A DNA stretch of 64,000 nt, taken from positions 124,001-188,000 of the forward strand of contig NZ_WQCG01000005.1 of assembly GCF_013032505.1 (NCBI RefSeq), given 5' to 3'. The position numbers were made by a program, and so were the translations under genes. Source of the stretch: Ruegeria atlantica. Lineage in GTDB: Bacteria; Pseudomonadota; Alphaproteobacteria; Rhodobacterales; Rhodobacteraceae. Below, piece by piece: positions 69 to 60,208 of this stretch. How positions within the stretch are numbered: the first letter of the stretch is position 1; every line of letters begins with the position of its first letter. The notes beneath the pieces were generated by a model. It searched no databases, had not been told where the DNA came from, and saw nothing but the letters and a program-made list of their open reading frames with translations.

Positions 69-950
69 TCAGCCAATTGCTTCCAGCACTGCCTCACCCA
101 GCTGCGCCGGGCTTTCGGCCACGACGATACCGGCAGAGCGCATGGCTTCGATCTTGTCCTCGGCACCGCCTTTGCCGCCGGCGACAATTGCGCCCGCGTG
201 GCCCATGCGGCGGCCCGGAGGGGCTGTGCGGCCTGCGATGAAACCCGCGGTCGGCTTCTTGCGGCCCTTCTTGGCCTCATCCGCCAGGAACTGCGCGGCT
301 TCTTCTTCGGCCGAGCCACCGATCTCACCGATCATGATGATCGACTCGGTCTCGTCATCGGCCAGGAACCATTCCAGCACGTCGATATGCTCGGTACCTT
401 TTATCGGGTCGCCGCCGATGCCCACACAGGTGGACTGGCCCAGACCCACATCGGTGGTCTGTTTGACGGCCTCATAGGTCAGGGTGCCCGAACGGGACAC
501 AACGCCGACCGAGCCGCGCTTGTGGATGTGGCCGGGCATGATGCCGATCTTGCAGGCGTCGGGTGTGATGACACCGGGGCAGTTCGGGCCGATCAGGCGA
601 GATTTCGAACCTTCCAGCGCGCGCTTCACCTTCATCATGTCGAGAACCGGGATGCCTTCGGTGATGCAAACGATCACTTCCATCTCGGCATCAATCGCTT
701 CTAGGATCGAGTCGGCTGCAAACGGCGGCGGAACATAGATCACCGAGGCATTGGCTTCGGTCACATGCTTGGCTTCGTGGACCGAGTTGAACACGGGCAG
801 GTCCAGATGGGTCATCCCACCTTTGCCAGGGGTCACGCCGCCGACCATCTTGGTGCCATATGCGATGGCCTGTTCAGAGTGGAATGTGCCCTGCGAGCCG
901 GTAAAGCCCTGACAGATCACTTTGGTGTTTTCGTCGATGAGGACTGCCAT
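69..950 (-). CDS. sucD: Succinyl-CoA synthetase, alpha subunit
   Basis: This is the alpha subunit of succinate-CoA ligase, which converts succinyl-CoA, ADP or GDP and phosphate to succinate, NTP and CoA in the TCA cycle. The 293 residues match the family length. The N-terminal CoA-binding Rossmann region contains [14 protein letters not shown] (about residues 15-28). The phosphohistidine loop [14 protein letters not shown] places the catalytic histidine at about residue 251. The partner sucC lies upstream on the same strand, but a methyltransferase gene separates the two, which is unusual because sucC and sucD normally abut or overlap. Expression probably starts at the sucC promoter with its twin operator near 3040-3068. 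Confidence 0.98.
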
Positions 951-1028: not shown

Positions 1029-1691
1029 TCAATCTTCACGCCGTTCCAAAGCGTCGATCACCTGATCTCTGGACCAAATTCCAAGAGAGCGTTGTTTCCG
1101 ACCCTCAGGCGTTTCCAGAAAATCCGGGTTGAGGTTGATTTCACCCGTTTCACTTACCGTTTCGATAGGATCCGGGAAGTTGAACGGAGCGGCGCACGGG
1201 TTGAACTTTTTGAAGTCTCCATTTCTCTGAAGCCGTGGATTGCGCGGAACATAGTCCATCGTGGTCATGAGATATGGAATCTCACTTTCAACAAAGTTCT
1301 CGAAGAATGCCCATCTCAACCACCATTTTAGATGAAAGAGACAGTCCCGACACATCATGAGATCCGCTTTAGGCAAGGCGTCCGAAGTTATGTCCAGATG
1401 GATAAACTCGCGACCGGGTGCTGCATGCTGATCTTTGACCTCAGTCAAAACTTCCGTCGAGATATCGCCCCCGATATATTGGATACCATTCAGGTCCACA
1501 TCTTGCATCCAAGTCCAATCCCCGCACGGTGCGTCAAGAAAGGTGCCGATCTTGTAGTCGACAAAGATACGGGGAAGCGCAGTGCGCAGGGCCGCAGTAG
1601 CAGCAAGAGTGGATCCGGGTCCTGAACGCGGTCCATTCCGCCGGCCGGCCCAACTCTTGCTTTCGAATACTGATCTGACACTGTCTCGCAT
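1029..1691 (-). CDS. Class I SAM-dependent methyltransferase inserted between sucC and sucD
   Basis: This 220-residue protein looks like a class I methyltransferase. It has a motif I-like FLDAPCGDWTWM (about residues 51-62), an acidic motif II at IGGDIS (73-78) and a post-motif region ADLMMCRDCLFHL. The substrate is unknown. Relatives I recall sit in polysaccharide or glycan gene sets, so a sugar or lipid target is an inference. It starts 45 bases after the sucC stop and ends 78 bases before sucD, all on the same strand, so it should be transcribed with the TCA genes. A GGGAAG ribosome site precedes the ATG. It looks more AT-rich than sucC and sucD, consistent with acquired DNA. Confidence 0.75.
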   Translation of the reverse strand: MRDSVRSVFESKSWAGRRNGPRSGPGSTLAATAALRTALPRIFVDYKIGTFLDAPCGDWTWMQDVDLNGIQYIGGDISTEVLTEVKDQHAAPGREFIHLDITSDALPKADLMMCRDCLFHLKWWLRWAFFENFVESEIPYLMTTMDYVPRNPRLQRNGDFKKFNPCAAPFNFPDPIETVSETGEINLNPDFLETPEGRKQRSLGIWSRDQVIDALERRED

Positions 1692-1736: not shown

Positions 1737-2930
1737 TTAACCCTTAACCGCTTTCACGATCTTCTCGGCACCGTCTTTCAGGTTGTCCGCCGCGATCACG
1801 TCCAGGCCAGAGGTGTTGATGATCTCTTTGCCTTTCTCGACATTTGTGCCTTCCAGACGTACGACCAGCGGAACCTTGAGGCCGACCTCTTTCACGGCAG
1901 CGACAACGCCTTCAGCGATGACGTCACAGCGCATGATGCCGCCGAAGATGTTGACCAGAATGCCTTTGACCTGTGGGTCCGAGGTGATGATCTTGAACGC
2001 TTCGGTCACTTTCTCTTTGGTGGCACCGCCGCCCACGTCGAGGAAGTTCGCCGGTTCAGCACCATAGAGCTTGATGATGTCCATCGTCGCCATTGCCAGA
2101 CCAGCGCCGTTGACCATGCAACCAATCTCACCATCCAGCGCGATGTAGTTCAGGTCATACTTGGAGGCTTCCAGTTCCTTGGGATCTTCCTCGGTGGTGT
2201 CGCGCAGTTCGGCGATGTCGGGGTGGCGGTAAACTGCGTTGCCGTCAAAGCCGACCTTGGCGTCCAGCACCTTGAGGTCGCCGCTGTCCGACACGATCAG
2301 CGGGTTGATCTCCAGCATCTCCATGTCCTTCTCGACGAAGGCGTTATAGAGCTGGCTCATCAGTTTCACGCATTGTTTGATCTGTGCGCCTTGCAAACCC
2401 AGCGAGAATGCGATGCGGCGGCCGTGATAGGGTTGATAGCCGGTCGCCGGGTCGACCGAGAAGGACAGGATTTTCTCGGGCGTCGCTGCGGCCACTTCTT
2501 CGATGTCCATGCCGCCCTCGGTCGAGCAAACGAACGAAATGCGGCTGGTCTGCCGATCCACCAGCAGAGCTAGGTACAATTCACGCTCGATGCCGGAACC
2601 AGCTTCGATGTAAATGCGGTTGACCTGCTTGCCTGCGGGACCGGTCTGATGTGTCACCAGCGTGCGGCCCAGCATCTTTTTGGCTTCTTCGGCTGCTTCT
2701 TCCACTGACTTGGTCAGACGAACCCCGCCTTTTTCGCCGGCATCAGCTTCTTTGAAGGACCCCTTGCCGCGGCCACCCGCGTGGATCTGTGCTTTGACAA
2801 CCCAAAGCGGGCCATCCAGTTCACCGGCTGCGGTTTTGGCTTCCTCAGCGCGCAGAACCGCGCGACCTTCGGAGACCGGAGCGCCATAGCTGCGAAGAAG
2901 CGCCTTGGCCTGATATTCGTGAATGTTCAT
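1737..2930 (-). CDS. sucC: Succinyl-CoA synthetase, beta subunit
   Basis: This is the nucleotide-binding beta subunit of succinate-CoA ligase, partner of SucD. The 397 residues start [12 protein letters not shown], the usual family opening. An ATP-grasp domain fills roughly residues 2-230. The C-terminal CoA-ligase domain carries the [13 protein letters not shown] signature that contacts the alpha-subunit phosphohistidine. It is the first gene of a sucC-methyltransferase-sucD unit. The mdh terminator at 3244-3272 isolates it from mdh, so it must have its own promoter in 2931-3243, where a twin GTGATCAC operator lies 110 bases before the ATG. Confidence 0.98.
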
Positions 2931-3036: not shown

Positions 3037-3071
3037 TTTGTGATCACGGTTTTTTTGGGTGTGATCACAAA
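3037..3071. promoter_or_regulatory. Twin palindromic operator upstream of sucC
   Basis: Two perfect 8-bp palindromes GTGATCAC lie at 3040-3047 and 3061-3068. Their start-to-start distance is 21 bp, two helical turns, so both face the same side of the DNA. In the sucC direction the first copy extends to TGTGATCACA. The pair ends 110 bases before the sucC ATG. The same pair with identical spacing precedes sdhC. The binding protein is unknown; the arms resemble CRP half-sites but with no spacer between them. Confidence 0.7.
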
Positions 3072-9081: not shown

Positions 9082-9116
9082 TTTGTGATCACGAGTTTAT
9101 TTTGTGTGATCACATA
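9082..9116. promoter_or_regulatory. Twin palindromic operator upstream of sdhC
   Basis: GTGATCAC occurs at 9085-9092 and 9106-9113, again exactly 21 bp apart with a 13-bp AT-rich spacer. The downstream copy is extended to TGTGATCACA. The pair ends 114 bases before the sdhC ATG. The architecture is identical to the site before sucC, which argues for one regulator acting on both TCA operons. Confidence 0.7.
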
Positions 9117-9227
9117 ATGCAAATATCCGTCATTTTGGGTCAATTATCAGCTTTTTTGCATCTGCAGCACGTGACAGAACCGCAAAAAACAGTAAAACCT
9201 TCGGGAGCCAACCGTAAAGGAGCCAAC

Positions 9228-9611
9228 ATGGCCGATGTAAATCGGGGCAATCGCCCTCTTTCACCTCACCTCACGATCTACCGCCCCCAACTGACTTCGA
9301 TAACGTCGATCCTTGTGCGGATCACCGGTATTGCATCGCTTATGATCGCATTTTTTGTCGTCTGGTGGTTCCTGGCGGCGGCAACATCCGAGACGGCATT
9401 CAATTTTATCGACGGGCTGATGAGAAGCTGGCTGGGTGATCTGGTGATGTTCGCTGCGACCTGGGCAATTTTCTATCACATGCTGGGTCGTCTGCGTCAC
9501 GTGATCTGGGATCTGGGATATTGTGTGGATGTCCGCATTTCCGAAAAGTTGGGGATCGGCATGTTGGTGCTTGCCACCATCCTGGCCTTCATCACAGCAA
9601 TTGCGGTTTAA
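9228..9611 (+). CDS. sdhC: Succinate dehydrogenase cytochrome b556 subunit
   Basis: Membrane anchor and haem/quinone-binding subunit of succinate dehydrogenase (complex II). I use the ATG at 9228 (127 residues) because AAAGGAGCC lies just before it and the protein then opens MADVNRGNRPLSPHLTIYRP, the SdhC signature. A longer frame from 9102 would run through the operator. There are three membrane helices. FYHMLGRLRHVIWDLGY (about 82-98) carries the conserved histidines, with H84 the likely haem ligand. It is the first gene of sdhCDA(B), controlled by the twin operator upstream. Confidence 0.96.
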   Translation: MADVNRGNRPLSPHLTIYRPQLTSITSILVRITGIASLMIAFFVVWWFLAAATSETAFNFIDGLMRSWLGDLVMFAATWAIFYHMLGRLRHVIWDLGYCVDVRISEKLGIGMLVLATILAFITAIAV

Positions 9612-10018: not shown

Positions 10019-11827
10019 ATGACAGCTGCATACGAATACGAAACACACGAATATGACGTGGTTGTTGTCGGCGCTGGCGGCGCTGGTCTGCGCGCCACGC
10101 TCGGCATGGCTGAACAGGGTCTGCGTACAGCGTGCGTGACCAAAGTGTTCCCGACGCGTTCGCACACAGTTGCTGCGCAGGGCGGTATCGCCGCATCTCT
10201 GTCCAACATGGGCCCAGACCACTGGCAATGGCACATGTACGACACCGTCAAAGGGTCGGACTGGCTGGGTGACACCGACGCGATGGAATACCTCGCGCGT
10301 GAGGCGCCCAAGGCCGTCTACGAGCTGGAACATTATGGCGTGCCCTTCAGCCGTACCGAAGAAGGCAAGATCTATCAGCGTCCCTTCGGCGGCCACACGA
10401 CCGAATTCGGCGAAGGTCCTGCCGTGCAGCGGACCTGTGCTGCTGCGGACCGGACCGGTCACGCGATCCTGCACACGCTGTACGGTCAGTCGCTTAAGAA
10501 CAACGCCGAGTTCTATATCGAATATTTTGCCATAGACCTGATCATGTCCGAGGACGGTCAGTGTCAGGGTGTCGTCTGCTGGAAGTTGGATGACGGCACG
10601 ATGCACGTTTTCAACGCCAAGATGGTGGTGCTGGCGACCGGCGGCTATGGCCGCGCCTATTTCAGTGCGACCTCGGCCCATACCTGCACTGGTGACGGTG
10701 GTGGCATGGTGGCCCGCGCAGGGCTGGCCCTGCAGGACATGGAGTTCGTTCAGTTCCACCCGACCGGCATTTACGGTTCTGGCTGTCTGATCACCGAGGG
10801 TGCGCGTGGCGAGGGTGGTTATCTGACCAACTCGGAAGGCGAGCGGTTCATGGAGCGCTACGCGCCCCAGTACAAGGATCTCGCACCTCGCGATTACGTC
10901 TCGCGCTCAATGACTATGGAGATCCGCGAAGGTCGTGGGCATGGCGAGGGTGGCGACCACATTCACCTGAACCTTAGCCACTTGCCCGCTGAGGCGCTGG
11001 CCGAGCGCCTGCCGGGCATTTCGGAATCGGCGCGCGTTTTTGCTGGCGTGGACGTCACCAAAGAGCCGATCCCGGTTCTGCCGACCGTGCACTACAACAT
11101 GGGCGGTATCCCAACGAACTATTGGGGTGAGGTTCTGAACCCGACGGCCGAGAATCCGACCGCTGTGGTCCCCGGCCTTATGGCCGTTGGCGAGGCAGGC
11201 TGTGCCTCGGTGCACGGAGCGAACCGTCTGGGCTCCAACTCGCTGATTGACCTTGTGGTCTTTGGCCGCGCGGCAGCTATCCGCGCAGGTAAGGTTGTGG
11301 ATGCTGAAGCGCCGAACCCTGTGCTAAATCAGGCGTCCGTCGACAAGGCGTTCGACCGCTTCGACGCGGTGCGTAATGCCAGCGGCGAGATTGCGACAGC
11401 CGATCTGCGTCTCGAAATGCAGAAGACCATGCAAGAAGATGCCGCTGTGTTCCGTACAGCCAAGACTATGGCCGAAGGTGTCGAAAAGATGACAGCGATT
11501 GCCGCCAAGATGGACGACCTGAAAGTCAGCGATCGCTCTCTGGTTTGGAACAGCGATCTGATGGAAACGTTGGAGTTGACTAACCTGATGCCAAGCGCCT
11601 TGGCCACGATTGTCGGCGCCGAGGCGCGTAAGGAATCCCGTGGCGCGCATGCGCATGAGGATTTCACCGAGCGTGATGATGAGAACTGGCGCGTTCACAC
11701 GGTCTCGCGTGTTGATGGCAACCAGGTCGAGCTTAGCTATCGCCCCGTCATTGCCGATCCGCTGACAACCGAGGATGAAGGCGGCATAAGCCTGCAGAAA
11801 ATCGCGCCCAAAGCGCGGACGTTCTGA
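10019..11827 (+). CDS. sdhA: Succinate dehydrogenase flavoprotein subunit
   Basis: Catalytic flavoprotein of complex II (602 residues), oxidising succinate to fumarate. The FAD-binding loop [21 protein letters not shown] (about 14-34) is followed by [12 protein letters not shown], where His49 is the expected covalent FAD attachment. The active-site region [20 protein letters not shown] and the C-terminal [11 protein letters not shown] are intact. In most bacteria sdhB follows directly. Here about 1.5 kb with a methyltransferase and a glycosyltransferase lies between sdhA and sdhB. Confidence 0.98.
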
Positions 11828-11871: not shown

Positions 11872-11964
11872 ATGAATAGTATCGTTGAGGGAAAAGGACT
11901 ATACGCACTCACAGACCGTGGAACCAAGATCTGCGGCCTTGTCAGTGTTGATGTGCCGACATGA
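11872..11964 (+). CDS. Possible 30-residue leader peptide ahead of the methyltransferase
   Basis: A short frame (MNSIVEGKGLYALTDRGTKI...) starts 45 bases after sdhA with AAAGG seven bases before its ATG. It stops with a TGA that overlaps the next ATG (ATGA), the usual layout for coupled translation. It has no recognisable homology and is too short to test by composition. It could be a real small protein, a coupling leader, or chance. Confidence 0.35.
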   Translation: MNSIVEGKGLYALTDRGTKICGLVSVDVPT

Positions 11965-12572
11965 GTAGTTTTTCCTCAAACGAATACTGGACCAACCGAT
12001 ATGCGCGGGGCAGAAACTCTGGCGCCGGGTCATACGGCAGGCTGGCGGTTTACAAGGCCAATTTCATCAACACCTTCGTCGAAGTTGAAGACATACAATC
12101 GGTAGCCGAACTGGGCAGTGGCGACGGCAACCAGGCAAGCTTTTTTGATATTCCTCAATTCACAGGGCTGGATATCTCGGAAGATTGCGTGCGCAAATGC
12201 AACACGCAATTCAGTGGGCGTTCAGGTTGGACGTTTCTTTCGGCAGATGCAGAGGTCGAGCCGCACGACGCCGCTCTGTCTCTGGACGTTATTTACCATC
12301 TGGTCGAGGATGACGTTTTTGAGGCCTATATGAACCGGCTGTTTTCTTTGGCAAAACGGTTTGTGGTGATTTATTCGTCCGATTTCGATCTTGAAACAAA
12401 CAACGTTCATGTGCGCCATAGGGCATATTCGACCTGGGTCGCGGACCGGTTCCCAAATTGGAAGATGTATTGCGGCGAGACAAACCCGTTCAATCGAGAT
12501 GGCCATGGTAATGCCAGCAGGTACAGTTTCGCTTCGTTCAAAGTCTTCGAAAGGATGAGTGATGGCGGTTAG
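11961..12572 (+). CDS. Class I SAM-dependent methyltransferase in the sdhA-sdhB gap
   Basis: This 203-residue protein has a clear SAM-binding motif VAELGSGDGNQASFF (about 48-62) followed by the acidic strand end FTGLDIS (67-73) and a motif IV-like ALSLDVIYHLVED. The N-terminal pattern EYWTNRYARGRNSGAGSYG is one I associate with methyltransferases encoded beside glycosyltransferases in polysaccharide clusters, so a glycan target is an inference. It overlaps the next gene, a glycosyltransferase, by 11 bases, making a tight pair. The pair looks more AT-rich than sdhA and sdhB and interrupts an operon that is normally compact. Confidence 0.8.
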   Translation: MSSFSSNEYWTNRYARGRNSGAGSYGRLAVYKANFINTFVEVEDIQSVAELGSGDGNQASFFDIPQFTGLDISEDCVRKCNTQFSGRSGWTFLSADAEVEPHDAALSLDVIYHLVEDDVFEAYMNRLFSLAKRFVVIYSSDFDLETNNVHVRHRAYSTWVADRFPNWKMYCGETNPFNRDGHGNASRYSFASFKVFERMSDGG

Positions 12573-13263
12573 AGCACATATGGCCTCGTACCCATTGCGG
12601 GAGAAAATGTTACCCCTTGCGGTGCAATCGATCATCGATCAGGTGGATGCGCTGTACCTTTGTCTGAACGAATGGGGCGAGGTTCCGGCGGAATACAAAG
12701 AAAACCCTAAGATACACGCCTTTGTGCCGGAAGAGGATCAGAAAGATGTCGGTAAGTTCTTCACGACACCCGACCCGGACGACATCGTTTTCTTCGTCGA
12801 TGATGATCTGATCTATAGCGAAATTTTCGTAAAGCACATGGTGCAGCGGCTTGAGGAGAAGGGCCCGGAGAAGGTGGTTTTTGGAACTCACGCTTCGACC
12901 TACACCGAAAAGACTCCGACCAGCCATCGACAACGAGATGTTGTCAAAGTTGGCCGACCACTGCGCCGGATGCAGCGCGTTGACCAGCTTGCAACATGTG
13001 GCATGGTTGCGATGGGCAAGAACGTCGCCCCGTATGAATTCATGAAAGACAGTCAGAAATTCGTGGATGTGCGATATGCGCGTTGGCTATACGAAAATGG
13101 AGTTGAAAGCTGGGCAATTGACCGGCAACGGGGTTTTGTGGGCCGTATTCCAGCGGAAAGAGATCACGAGACTATCTTTAAAACATTCACTAGACGAACA
13201 CCTCCGGCCGTACTTGCAGAAATATCCGTATTTGCGTCCCGGTCCAAAGAAGGAGTGGAGTGA
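12562..13263 (+). CDS. Glycosyltransferase-like protein (GT-A fold) in the sdhA-sdhB gap
   Basis: This 233-residue protein resembles a family 2-like glycosyltransferase. The N-terminal strand VDALYLCLNEWGEVP is followed by DDIVFFVDDDLIYSEIF, whose acidic DDD is the likely metal and nucleotide-sugar site (about residues 75-80). A later WAIDRQRGFVGRIP may belong to the acceptor side. There are no membrane segments. I prefer the ATG at 12562 over a GTG three bases earlier. It overlaps the methyltransferase and ends 73 bases before sdhB, in the same direction. Its acceptor is unknown. Confidence 0.72.
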   Translation: MAVRAHMASYPLREKMLPLAVQSIIDQVDALYLCLNEWGEVPAEYKENPKIHAFVPEEDQKDVGKFFTTPDPDDIVFFVDDDLIYSEIFVKHMVQRLEEKGPEKVVFGTHASTYTEKTPTSHRQRDVVKVGRPLRRMQRVDQLATCGMVAMGKNVAPYEFMKDSQKFVDVRYARWLYENGVESWAIDRQRGFVGRIPAERDHETIFKTFTRRTPPAVLAEISVFASRSKEGVE

Positions 13264-13336: not shown

Positions 13337-14116
13337 ATGGTACAATTAACCCTCCCCAAGAATTCTCGGATTACCACTGGCAAAACTTGGCCCAAGCCTG
13401 AAGGCGCGACCAATGTTCGTAAGTTTCAGATCTATCGCTGGAACCCGGATGATGGGCAGAACCCGCGCGTAGACACTTATTTCGTTGACATGGACAGCTG
13501 CGGTCCGATGGTTCTGGACGCGCTGATCAAGATCAAAAACGAGATTGACCCGACGTTGACGTTCCGCCGGTCCTGCCGCGAAGGCATCTGCGGATCCTGT
13601 GCGATGAACATCGACGGGATCAACACGCTGGCCTGTATCTACGGCATGGATGAAATCAAGGGCGACGTGAAGATATATCCGCTGCCGCATATGCCGGTGG
13701 TCAAAGACCTGATCCCCGACCTGACGCATTTCTACGCGCAGCATGCCAGCATCATGCCGTGGCTGGAAACCAAGACAAACCGTCCCGCGAAAGAGTGGAA
13801 GCAATCCATTGAGGATCGCAAGAAACTGGATGGATTGTACGAATGCGTGATGTGCGCCAGCTGCTCAACCTCGTGCCCCAGCTATTGGTGGAACGGGGAT
13901 CGCTATCTTGGCCCCGCCGCTTTGCTGCATGCGTATCGCTGGATCATCGACAGTCGTGACGAAGCCACCGGTGAGCGTCTGGATGAGCTGGAAGATCCGT
14001 TCAAGCTGTATCGCTGCCACACGATTATGAACTGCGCCAAGACTTGCCCGAAGGGTCTGAACCCGGCCAAGGCGATTGCCGAAATCAAGAAGATGATGGT
14101 CGACCGCGCGGTTTGA
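13337..14116 (+). CDS. sdhB: Succinate dehydrogenase iron-sulfur subunit
   Basis: Electron-transfer subunit of complex II (259 residues). The N-terminal ferredoxin-like domain holds the 2Fe-2S ligands in [15 protein letters not shown] and the downstream LAC. The C-terminal domain holds the 4Fe-4S motif [16 protein letters not shown] and the 3Fe-4S motif [17 protein letters not shown]. It has its own AAAGGA ribosome site. It is separated from sdhA by the inserted cassette, so read-through from sdhC or a local promoter is needed for balanced expression. A terminator follows directly. Confidence 0.98.
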
Positions 14117-28205: not shown

Positions 28206-29299
28206 CACTGCGCTCCCTTCCGCAGGCTCAGGAACAGCTTTTCAAGCGGCATCCGGACCATGTTGTCCAGTGCCCCGGTGAACAGGATCACCAGCGCCTG
28301 TATGACAACGATCAGTTCGCGAGGGATCGACGTCCAGAAGGCCAACTCCGCACCACCCTGATAGAGAAACCCGAACAGGATCGCCGCAAGAAACACACCG
28401 AACGGGTGCGACCGCCCCATGAGGGCCACGGCGATGCCGATGAAACCCGCGCCTTCGGTCGCATTCAAGACCAAGCGCTCTGCCTCACCCATCACGTTGT
28501 TGATCGCCATCAGCCCCGCCAGCGCGCCTGAAATCAGCATTGCAATGATCGTGATCCGCACCGGTGAAATGCCTGCATAGACAGCGCCGGTTTCGGTTTT
28601 GCCGTAGGATCGGATTTCATAGCCCAATCTTGTCCGCCAGATCAGCGCCCAGACAACAAAACAAGCCAAAACCGCAATGAAGAACGTAATGTTAACCGGA
28701 GTCCCCTTGAACACCACGTTGTCGGCGCTTGAGAACATCGACTGAAATGTCGGCAGGTGTACAGCCTCGGGGAAACGCGCCGAGGACGGGTCTTGCGCGC
28801 CCGGTGGCCGCATAAGGTTGACCAGAACGTAGTTCAGGAATGCCGCCGCAATAAAGTTGAACATGATCGTTGTGATCACGATGTGGCTGCCGCGTTTGGC
28901 CTGAAGATAGGCCGGAATGGCGGCCCATGCTGCGCCAAACAGCATTGCGCCTGCGCTTGCCGCTAACAGAGCAACGCTCCAATGCGGCCATGGGATGTAG
29001 AGACATACCAGGGCGACGCCCAGCCCACCCAGCATGGCCTGTCCTTCGCCCCCGATGTTGAAAAGCCGGGCATGGAAGGCGACGGCCACGGCCAACCCGG
29101 TGAACATGAAGTTGGTGGCGTAATACAGCGTATAACCCCATCCATAGGTCGACCCGAGCGCGCCGGTCACCATTAGCTTCACCGCTTCGACCGGGTTTTC
29201 CCCAATCGCAAGAATGACCAGAGCGGACAGGATTGCGGCCAATACCAGACTGATCAGCGGGATCAGTACTACATCGGCCCATTTGGGCATCTTTTCCAT
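28205..29299 (-). CDS. Nucleoside-type ABC transporter permease 1
   Basis: A 364-residue permease (YufP/NupP-like) with about ten hydrophobic segments and the family stretch FNIGGEGQAMLGGLG. The second permease of this transporter class is always distinct, as here. I prefer the ATG at 29299 (MEKMPKWADV), which begins two bases after the ATPase stop codon and has GGGGGAGG upstream. A longer frame to 29323 would overlap the ATPase. Confidence 0.93.
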   Translation of the reverse strand: MEKMPKWADVVLIPLISLVLAAILSALVILAIGENPVEAVKLMVTGALGSTYGWGYTLYYATNFMFTGLAVAVAFHARLFNIGGEGQAMLGGLGVALVCLYIPWPHWSVALLAASAGAMLFGAAWAAIPAYLQAKRGSHIVITTIMFNFIAAAFLNYVLVNLMRPPGAQDPSSARFPEAVHLPTFQSMFSSADNVVFKGTPVNITFFIAVLACFVVWALIWRTRLGYEIRSYGKTETGAVYAGISPVRITIIAMLISGALAGLMAINNVMGEAERLVLNATEGAGFIGIAVALMGRSHPFGVFLAAILFGFLYQGGAELAFWTSIPRELIVVIQALVILFTGALDNMVRMPLEKLFLSLRKGAQ

Positions 29300-43983: not shown

Positions 43984-44355
43984 ATGGGTGCACAATCCGT
44001 TCGAAGTTCTGTGTCATATTATGCTGGGCAAGCAGCAGAGCAACAGGTTGCAGCAGAATACGAACGGCATGGATTTTCTGTTGCCCACCGCCGCTGGCGT
44101 GGCGCCGGCGGGGAAATTGATCTGATTGCGCGTAACTCGGACGGGATTGTTTTTGTCGAGGTTAAGAAAAGCACCAGTTTCGATGCGGCTGCAGCCCGGA
44201 TCAATCGGCGTCAGATGGATCGTATCTGCGCATCTGCTGCCCAATATCTGGAAACTGAGCCCAGCGGACAACTGACGAGTGTTCGGTTTGACGCGGCTTT
44301 GGTTGACGCGTCGGGCGCCGTTCAAATTATCGAAAACGCTTTTGGTTTGGCGTGA
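43984..44355 (+). CDS. yraN: UPF0102 family endonuclease-like protein (YraN)
   Basis: A 123-residue YraN protein. The restriction-endonuclease-like core GGEIDLIARNSDGIVFVEVKK carries the conserved acidic and lysine residues (E..D...E.K) of the family, near residues 40-60. The cellular role is not settled; genetic linkage with rsmI and an LpoA-like gene is conserved across proteobacteria. It starts one base after the rsmI stop. Confidence 0.93.
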   Translation: MGAQSVRSSVSYYAGQAAEQQVAAEYERHGFSVAHRRWRGAGGEIDLIARNSDGIVFVEVKKSTSFDAAAARINRRQMDRICASAAQYLETEPSGQLTSVRFDAALVDASGAVQIIENAFGLA

Positions 44356-59675: not shown

Positions 59676-60208
59676 GCCCGGGCCCCTCTTGTGCCGGGAT
59701 CAGATACAGATACCCGCCGTACACCCAGCATGTTTTGGCTGAGAAAAACGATTAAAGGATAGACCGCAATTGTCAGAACAACTTGTATCACCACAGGACC
59801 CAATGCCGCTTGCTGTACAGATACAATAGCAAGAATGACACGGTTCAAAACGAAAACTCCAGTGATCACTACGGCAGCTGTTGTCCATTCAGCCATAAAC
59901 CCGGAATCACGCAGTACGAACGCAGCCGAGCGCAGATAAGCGGCTCCCAGGACCACAAGCGCGGCCAAAAGGCCCGGTGGCCGCTGCAGAAGCAAATCCG
60001 CCATCAACATTACCGCCGCAACCAGAAATATGGGAACGTACTCTGGTCTGCGGAGAACCCAAGCGAACGTAAGCGCGATCAACAGATCCGGAAACGGCCA
60101 GCGATCCGGCTGCGTGTTCAACGGCAGAAGATGCAAAAACATGATTACTACTGCCAAGAATACAAACAAACTGCGTTTGATCCAAAGATGCGTGGTTTGC
60201 TTATCCAT
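59672..60208 (-). CDS. mreD: Rod-shape-determining protein MreD
   Basis: A small inner-membrane protein (178 residues) with about five helices, linking MreB/MreC to the wall synthesis machinery. Sequence conservation is low in this family. The assignment rests on length, hydrophobicity, the PDLLIALTFAWVLRRPEYVP segment and its position between mreC and mrdA. The start overlaps the mreC stop region and the stop overlaps mrdA (ATGA). Confidence 0.92.
   Translation of the reverse strand: MDKQTTHLWIKRSLFVFLAVVIMFLHLLPLNTQPDRWPFPDLLIALTFAWVLRRPEYVPIFLVAAVMLMADLLLQRPPGLLAALVVLGAAYLRSAAFVLRDSGFMAEWTTAAVVITGVFVLNRVILAIVSVQQAALGPVVIQVVLTIAVYPLIVFLSQNMLGVRRVSVSDPGTRGARA

Follow-up and report, generated by a model that had tools for sequence, protein, structure and literature searches.

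Paired palindromic octamers before sucC and sdhC in Ruegeria atlantica are the probable operators of AkgR

The 64,000-nucleotide stretch of DNA analyzed here (the window) contains two pairs of the perfect palindrome GTGATCAC, one before sucC and one before sdhC, with the two octamers of each pair 21 bp apart. Comparison of genomes, combined with published work on the regulator, makes it highly likely that each pair is an operator of the GntR/FCD regulator AkgR, which would bind as one dimer per octamer and activate sucCD-sucAB and sdhCDAB. The sites, their spacing, conservation, targets, co-occurrence with the regulator, and phasing were computed; the activator role and the motif were taken from papers. 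The features of the window are as follows.

69..950, minus strand: sucD, open reading frame matched to orthologues
1737..2930, minus strand: sucC, first gene of the sucC..sucD..sucA-sucB cluster, open reading frame named from its sequence and matched to orthologues
3040..3047, no strand: octamer proximal to sucC, perfect palindrome GTGATCAC, conserved as an exact pair
3061..3068, no strand: distal octamer of the sucC pair, 21 bp from its partner
9085..9092, no strand: octamer distal to sdhC, from the exact pair scan
9106..9113, no strand: octamer proximal to sdhC, from the exact pair scan
9171..9176, plus strand: conserved GTGACA, proposed as the sdhC -35 box and located 57 bp downstream from the nearer octamer
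9228..9611, plus strand: sdhC, first gene of the sdhC-D-A..B cluster, open reading frame with its start codon assigned
10019..11827, plus strand: sdhA, open reading frame matched to orthologues
13337..14116, plus strand: sdhB, open reading frame matched to orthologues

The pairs end 109 bp upstream from the sucC ATG (position 2930, minus strand) and 114 bp upstream from the sdhC ATG (position 9228, plus strand). This confirms the original prediction, which had placed twin octamers at 3040 and 3061, about 110 bp before sucC, and the same arrangement with the same spacing before sdhC. The sucA and sucB genes of the sucC cluster are located beyond the edge of the window. Since sucC heads sucD, sucA, and sucB, and sdhC heads sdhD, sdhA, and sdhB, the two pairs between them span the part of the cycle that leads from 2-oxoglutarate to fumarate. 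Both clusters contain additional open reading frames, at 1029-1691 (minus strand) between sucC and sucD, and at 11961-12572 and 12559-13263 (plus strand) between sdhA and sdhB. One of the three has a methyltransferase domain match below the cut-off, and the other two have no Pfam match. In Cereibacter johrii, the gap between sucC and sucD is only 4 bp.

The octamer occurs nine times in the window for an expected number of 1.05 (standard deviation of 1.03), a count reached by none of 100 dinucleotide shuffles. Nine random positions are expected to give about 0.001 pairs at exactly 21 bp, and two exact pairs were found. Together, these comparisons make chance very unlikely. Allowing up to three mismatches, the pair with 13 intervening bp (N13) was detected at four places in the window, for 0.30 expected, the sucC and sdhC pairs being the only exact ones. 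These two are also the only exact pairs in the whole genome. A third candidate in that genome, with two mismatches (C23:701558), was discarded because it lies inside a 480-codon open frame. The five other octamers of the window were unpaired, as predicted, and the accompanying claim that all of them fall in coding regions was only roughly right: those at 28872, 30238, and 50542 are within open frames of 277-512 codons, the one at 44352 overlaps a stop codon, that of a 129-codon frame, and the one at 59862 is within overlapping stop-to-stop frames of 184-206 codons.

Conservation was first assessed in 41 genomes with a pattern including the flanking T and A and allowing up to two mismatches. 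The pattern was present in 25 of them, corresponding to all 25 genomes of the window's genus (its own included) and none of the 16 from other families; each of the 25 harbored two pairs with exact octamers. At the family level, the exact pair was found in 249 of 295 genomes representing 294 genera, two copies per genome being the usual number. The reversed control pattern was absent from all 295. Among 289 genomes drawn from the class, five contained the exact pair, including three members of the family (G000, G250, and G334). Outside the family, 2 of 285 genomes were positive. One of these two pairs is inside an inositol monophosphatase-family frame, and the other (G464, L201:992-1020) is located just before a GntR/FCD gene whose product is 30% identical to AkgR. 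At the latter locus, one more octamer, with one mismatch, is found 20 bp upstream from the exact pair.

All 50 loci checked for the gene downstream from the pair precede a TCA operon (25 sucC, 23 sdhC, one sucA, and one fumC). They comprise 20 loci of the genus (10 sucC and 10 sdhC), drawn from its 25 pair-bearing genomes, and 30 loci of the family (15 sucC, 13 sdhC, and 2 other), drawn from the 249. The pair associated with sucA is placed between mdh and sucA. The pair associated with fumC (G082, L044:1501-1529) lies 124 bp upstream from a gene for class II fumarase that scores above the NCBIfam cut-off; fumC is a possible extra target of AkgR in this genome. A TTGCGCTATCA stretch lies between this pair and the fumarase gene. 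Of the genes that the original prediction had listed for such a scan, sucA was a target at one locus, and acnA, icd, and gltA were absent as targets among the 50 loci. Pairs unrelated to central metabolism or a lack of conservation had been named as outcomes speaking against the prediction; the pairs were conserved and stood before TCA genes, which supports the proposal that one transcription factor controls the TCA operons. In an alignment of 39 sucC and 39 sdhC promoters, the octamers are invariant because the promoters were selected for the exact 21-bp pair. Inside the spacer, no position exceeds 0.54 bit, except for the bases adjacent to the octamers (A after, T before), which reach up to 1.55 bit. 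Conservation extends to the TTT and AAA on the outer sides (0.41-1.94 bit), indicating that the entire unit has two-fold symmetry.

The AkgR regulon of Rhodobacter sphaeroides was reportedly described by Imam, Noguera and Donohue in mBio in 2015. We take AkgR to be the product of RSP_0981. According to an excerpt of PMC6365646, the sites bound by AkgR, an activator of R. sphaeroides, include GTGATCAC, and RSP_0981 is presented as a GntR transcription factor predicted to regulate sucCD, sdh, and the 2-oxoglutarate dehydrogenase genes in an excerpt of PMC4344238. The factor, left unnamed in the original prediction, can therefore be named: the pair is very probably bound by AkgR, a member of the GntR/FCD family, and not by a variant of CRP. 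The window's genome contains 18 FCD matches, and the octamer is present in the 3-kb locus of only one of them, just upstream from the start codon of a gene encoding 215 residues. This akgR homologue (L080:5959-6606) encodes an N-terminal GntR winged helix and a C-terminal FCD domain (PF00392 and PF07729, both over the cut-off). The protein matched no NCBIfam family above the cut-off; among proteins of known structure, the closest to it in sequence is E. coli McbR (4p9f). TGTGATCACA occurs nine times in the window's genome, with six occurrences in open frames; outside open frames, there is one per twin and one just 5' of the same 215-residue GntR and FCD gene. A single octamer was also found near the akgR start at 29 of the 30 best-scoring loci of the family, which are those of the closest homologues only.

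C. johrii, a close relative of R. sphaeroides, has a reaction-center L protein 100% identical to the R. sphaeroides sequence used as query. Its akgR homologue, with 76% identity (31% for the next best match), is located 0.7 kb beyond sdhB on a contig that also carries exact pairs before both sdhC and sucC. No octamer was found near akgR on inspection of this locus. The gene order is ygjP-akgR-sdhBA..C / mdh-sucCDAB, and the order suc-mdh-sdh-akgR is consistent with the RSP numbers 0962-0968, 0974-0976, and 0981 given in an excerpt of PMC4344238. The system of the window resembles the AkgR regulon of R. sphaeroides in its palindrome, in its targets (sucCD, sucAB, and sdh), in the presence of an akgR orthologue in the genome, and in the gene order seen in C. 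johrii.

The distribution of akgR was compared with that of the pair in the 295 genomes of the family. An AkgR homologue was detected in 278 genomes at an E value of 1e-20 or better and in 268 with the threshold retained for strong homologues (E ≤ 1e-50), which was set once the table had been inspected. The exact 21-bp pair was present in 243 of the 268 genomes with a strong homologue versus 6 of the 27 without. Considering pairs at 20 or 21 bp, the corresponding fractions were 259/268 and 6/27 (Fisher p of 5e-20, uncorrected for kinship). For the 260 genomes that were at least 90% complete, a tally in which contamination was also bounded, the 21-bp pair was found in 221 of 240 versus 3 of 20 genomes (p of 4e-14, again uncorrected for kinship). 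Six genomes, three of which were at least 90% complete, had the exact pair and no strong akgR match, possibly owing to gaps in the drafts. Three genomes with this combination (G059, G154, and G296) were at least 91% complete and in about 210 or more contigs. Conversely, nine genomes had a strong akgR match and neither an exact 21-bp nor an exact 20-bp pair; at least one of them, G080, has kept pairs with one mismatch at both promoters.

The CRP operator consensus is TGTGA-N6-TCACA, with a 6-bp spacer. The arms of the octamer, TGTGA and TCACA, resemble these half-sites, and the original prediction had noted the likeness. However, the arms are fused, without the spacer, and co-occurrence points to AkgR; binding of a CRP/FNR-like protein to fused half-sites is scarcely credible. 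This candidate was rejected since the spacer is missing and since R. sphaeroides is not predicted to possess CRP analogues according to an excerpt of PMC4344238. Binding of another GntR/FCD paralogue, or of AkgR together with one, is a somewhat less remote idea, albeit an improbable one. In its favor, the window's genome has the 18 FCD matches mentioned above, the nearest being 39% identical to AkgR, and the excerpt of PMC6365646 proposes a GTGATCAC site for PS417_07240, a GntR protein of Pseudomonas simiae that is 32% identical to AkgR. In contrast to the arrangement described here, that protein has a single described palindrome, which spans -47 to -40 relative to its own gene, and regulates a deoxyribonate catabolism cluster rather than TCA operons (PMC6365646, same excerpt). 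Against a paralogue, the octamer is found at the AkgR locus alone among the 18 FCD loci, and the nearest paralogue, the only one tested for this purpose, was not found in 25 of the 34 genomes with twins that were tested. Its presence (E ≤ 1e-65) in only 9 of these 34 genomes, and in 5 of 46 genomes lacking the exact pair, indicates that it does not account for the pair.

Octamers separated by other distances were also surveyed. Pairs with 0-12 bp between the octamers were found in 62 of the 295 genomes. N12 (20 bp center to center) accounted for 52 of 71 tallied pairs of this type, and all 23 N12 loci examined were before sucC or sdhC. None of seven loci with shorter spacings preceded sucC or sdhC; one preceded akgR. 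Spacings of 14-44 bp were found in 47 of the 295 genomes, and 1 of 30 loci examined, in G325, preceded sucC; it holds three octamers in a triple array, spaced 21 + 21 bp. Loci retrieved separately also showed triple arrays before sucC in G175 and G231 and, in G210, a pair 22 bp apart at that gene. These counts indicate a standard distance of 20-22 bp, or about two turns of the helix. Pairs at spacings other than 20 and 21 bp were set aside, as most of them (36 of 37 loci) lay away from the TCA genes. The N14 pair of G101 (L166) is near a contig end. A spacing of 30-31 bp, close to three turns of the helix, was seen in G176 (L250:2543-2581), G204 (L251:1468-1505), and G082 (L254:2513-2551), the pair in G176 being 84 bp before a TauE/SafE-type gene. 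In promoters with at least two exact octamers (loci L208 onward), the pair ended 97-154 bp before the start codon of sucC (48 promoters) and 107-191 bp before that of sdhC (42 promoters).

In the sdhC promoter of the window, GTGACA is followed 16 bp later by TAAAAC. Downstream from the proximal octamer, 56 of 63 distinct sdhC promoters carry a GTGAC[AT] box that is probably the -35 element; the remaining seven have none. The offset from the proximal octamer was 57-61 bp in 48 of the 56, and 48, 69, 70, 70, 71, 78, 79, and 80 bp in the other eight. The 63 promoters include 11 from the window's genus, all with an offset of 57 bp; leaving this genus out, 37 promoters had offsets of 57-61 bp and eight had other offsets, of 52. 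Two promoters contained further boxes, at 15 and 24 bp, and the box nearer the gene was chosen. The eight outlying offsets fall on steps of about 10.5 bp, and all offsets together (48, 57-61, 69-71, and 78-80 bp) occupy four helical steps. Of 100,000 random sets of eight offsets, 5 were phased equally well, a figure that is no strict probability since the test was devised once the pattern was known and the genomes share ancestry. If the box is the -35 element, the octamer centers would be near -98 and -119. Phasing between the sites and to the -35-like box suggests that two dimers lie on the same side of the helix and activate from these positions. In the aligned sucC promoters, no clear -10/-35 pair was recognized, only a weakly conserved CGTTT-like stretch.

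For class I activators such as CRP, the helical face matters and displacements by whole turns are tolerated. The pair would share these two properties and would differ from the class I CRP architecture by the involvement of a GntR/FCD protein, by the pairing of the sites, and by their position at about -98 and -119. In the proposed mechanism, one AkgR dimer would bind each GTGATCAC, and the two dimers, two helical turns apart on the same DNA face, would probably touch and may bind cooperatively. Transcription of sucCD-sucAB and sdhCDAB would be activated from about -98 and -119, presumably by contact with RNA polymerase, and the 2-oxoglutarate-to-fumarate steps would be switched together. The single GTGATCAC at the akgR start probably lets AkgR limit its own synthesis, as expected for autorepression. 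Alternatively, the two AkgR dimers could act independently, the second octamer being a redundant back-up. A single site is seemingly enough at akgR, and in a few promoters (L265 and L267) just one of the octamers is exact; however, both octamers and the 20-21 bp spacing are conserved in most sampled genera and 21 + 21 bp triple arrays exist, making a mere back-up unlikely. Returning to the pair as a joint operator, we tentatively propose, with slightly less than even confidence, a code based on the number of sites: a lone octamer would mediate self-repression of akgR, and a pair on one face, with sites 20-22 bp apart, would mediate activation by a dimer of dimers from -98/-119, the switch being frozen throughout the family, with the pair-to-promoter distance shifting almost only by 1-2 bases or by whole turns.

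The site of the window very probably adds one more AkgR operator to a system whose regulator and targets were already known. The twin geometry, the phasing, the family-wide invariance, and the akgR site were derived here. No description of the twin arrangement, its phasing, or its near-fixity was found in the literature searched, which does not include the original AkgR paper of 2015, and the latter may report twins. The GntR/FCD group is known mostly for repressors. The AkgR pair would offer a clean test bed for activation by this group from paired upstream sites, place the central TCA steps under a single regulator throughout a widespread family (Rhodobacteraceae, judging from named relatives), and provide an invariant motif usable to find AkgR targets in unstudied genomes. 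In PMC5507952, PMC4419725, PMC7471390, PMC8557541, and PMC11323563, the name AkgR appears only in the reference lists.

A second regulator may contribute at some of these promoters. The stretch GCGCTAAC, which resembles the core of the CceR motif, was found between the pair and the start codon in 5 of 39 sucC and 8 of 39 sdhC promoters, for shuffle means of 1.6 and 1.8, respectively, and a maximum of 6 in 200 shuffles each. The enrichment is suggestive for sdhC only. This suggests that CceR and AkgR may act on the same promoters in some genera. An excerpt of PMC4344238 gives the motif of RSP_1663 as GTT-N6-8-AAC. CceR-like GCGCTAAC stretches were seen in the promoters of L209, L210, L213, L216, L223, and L252.
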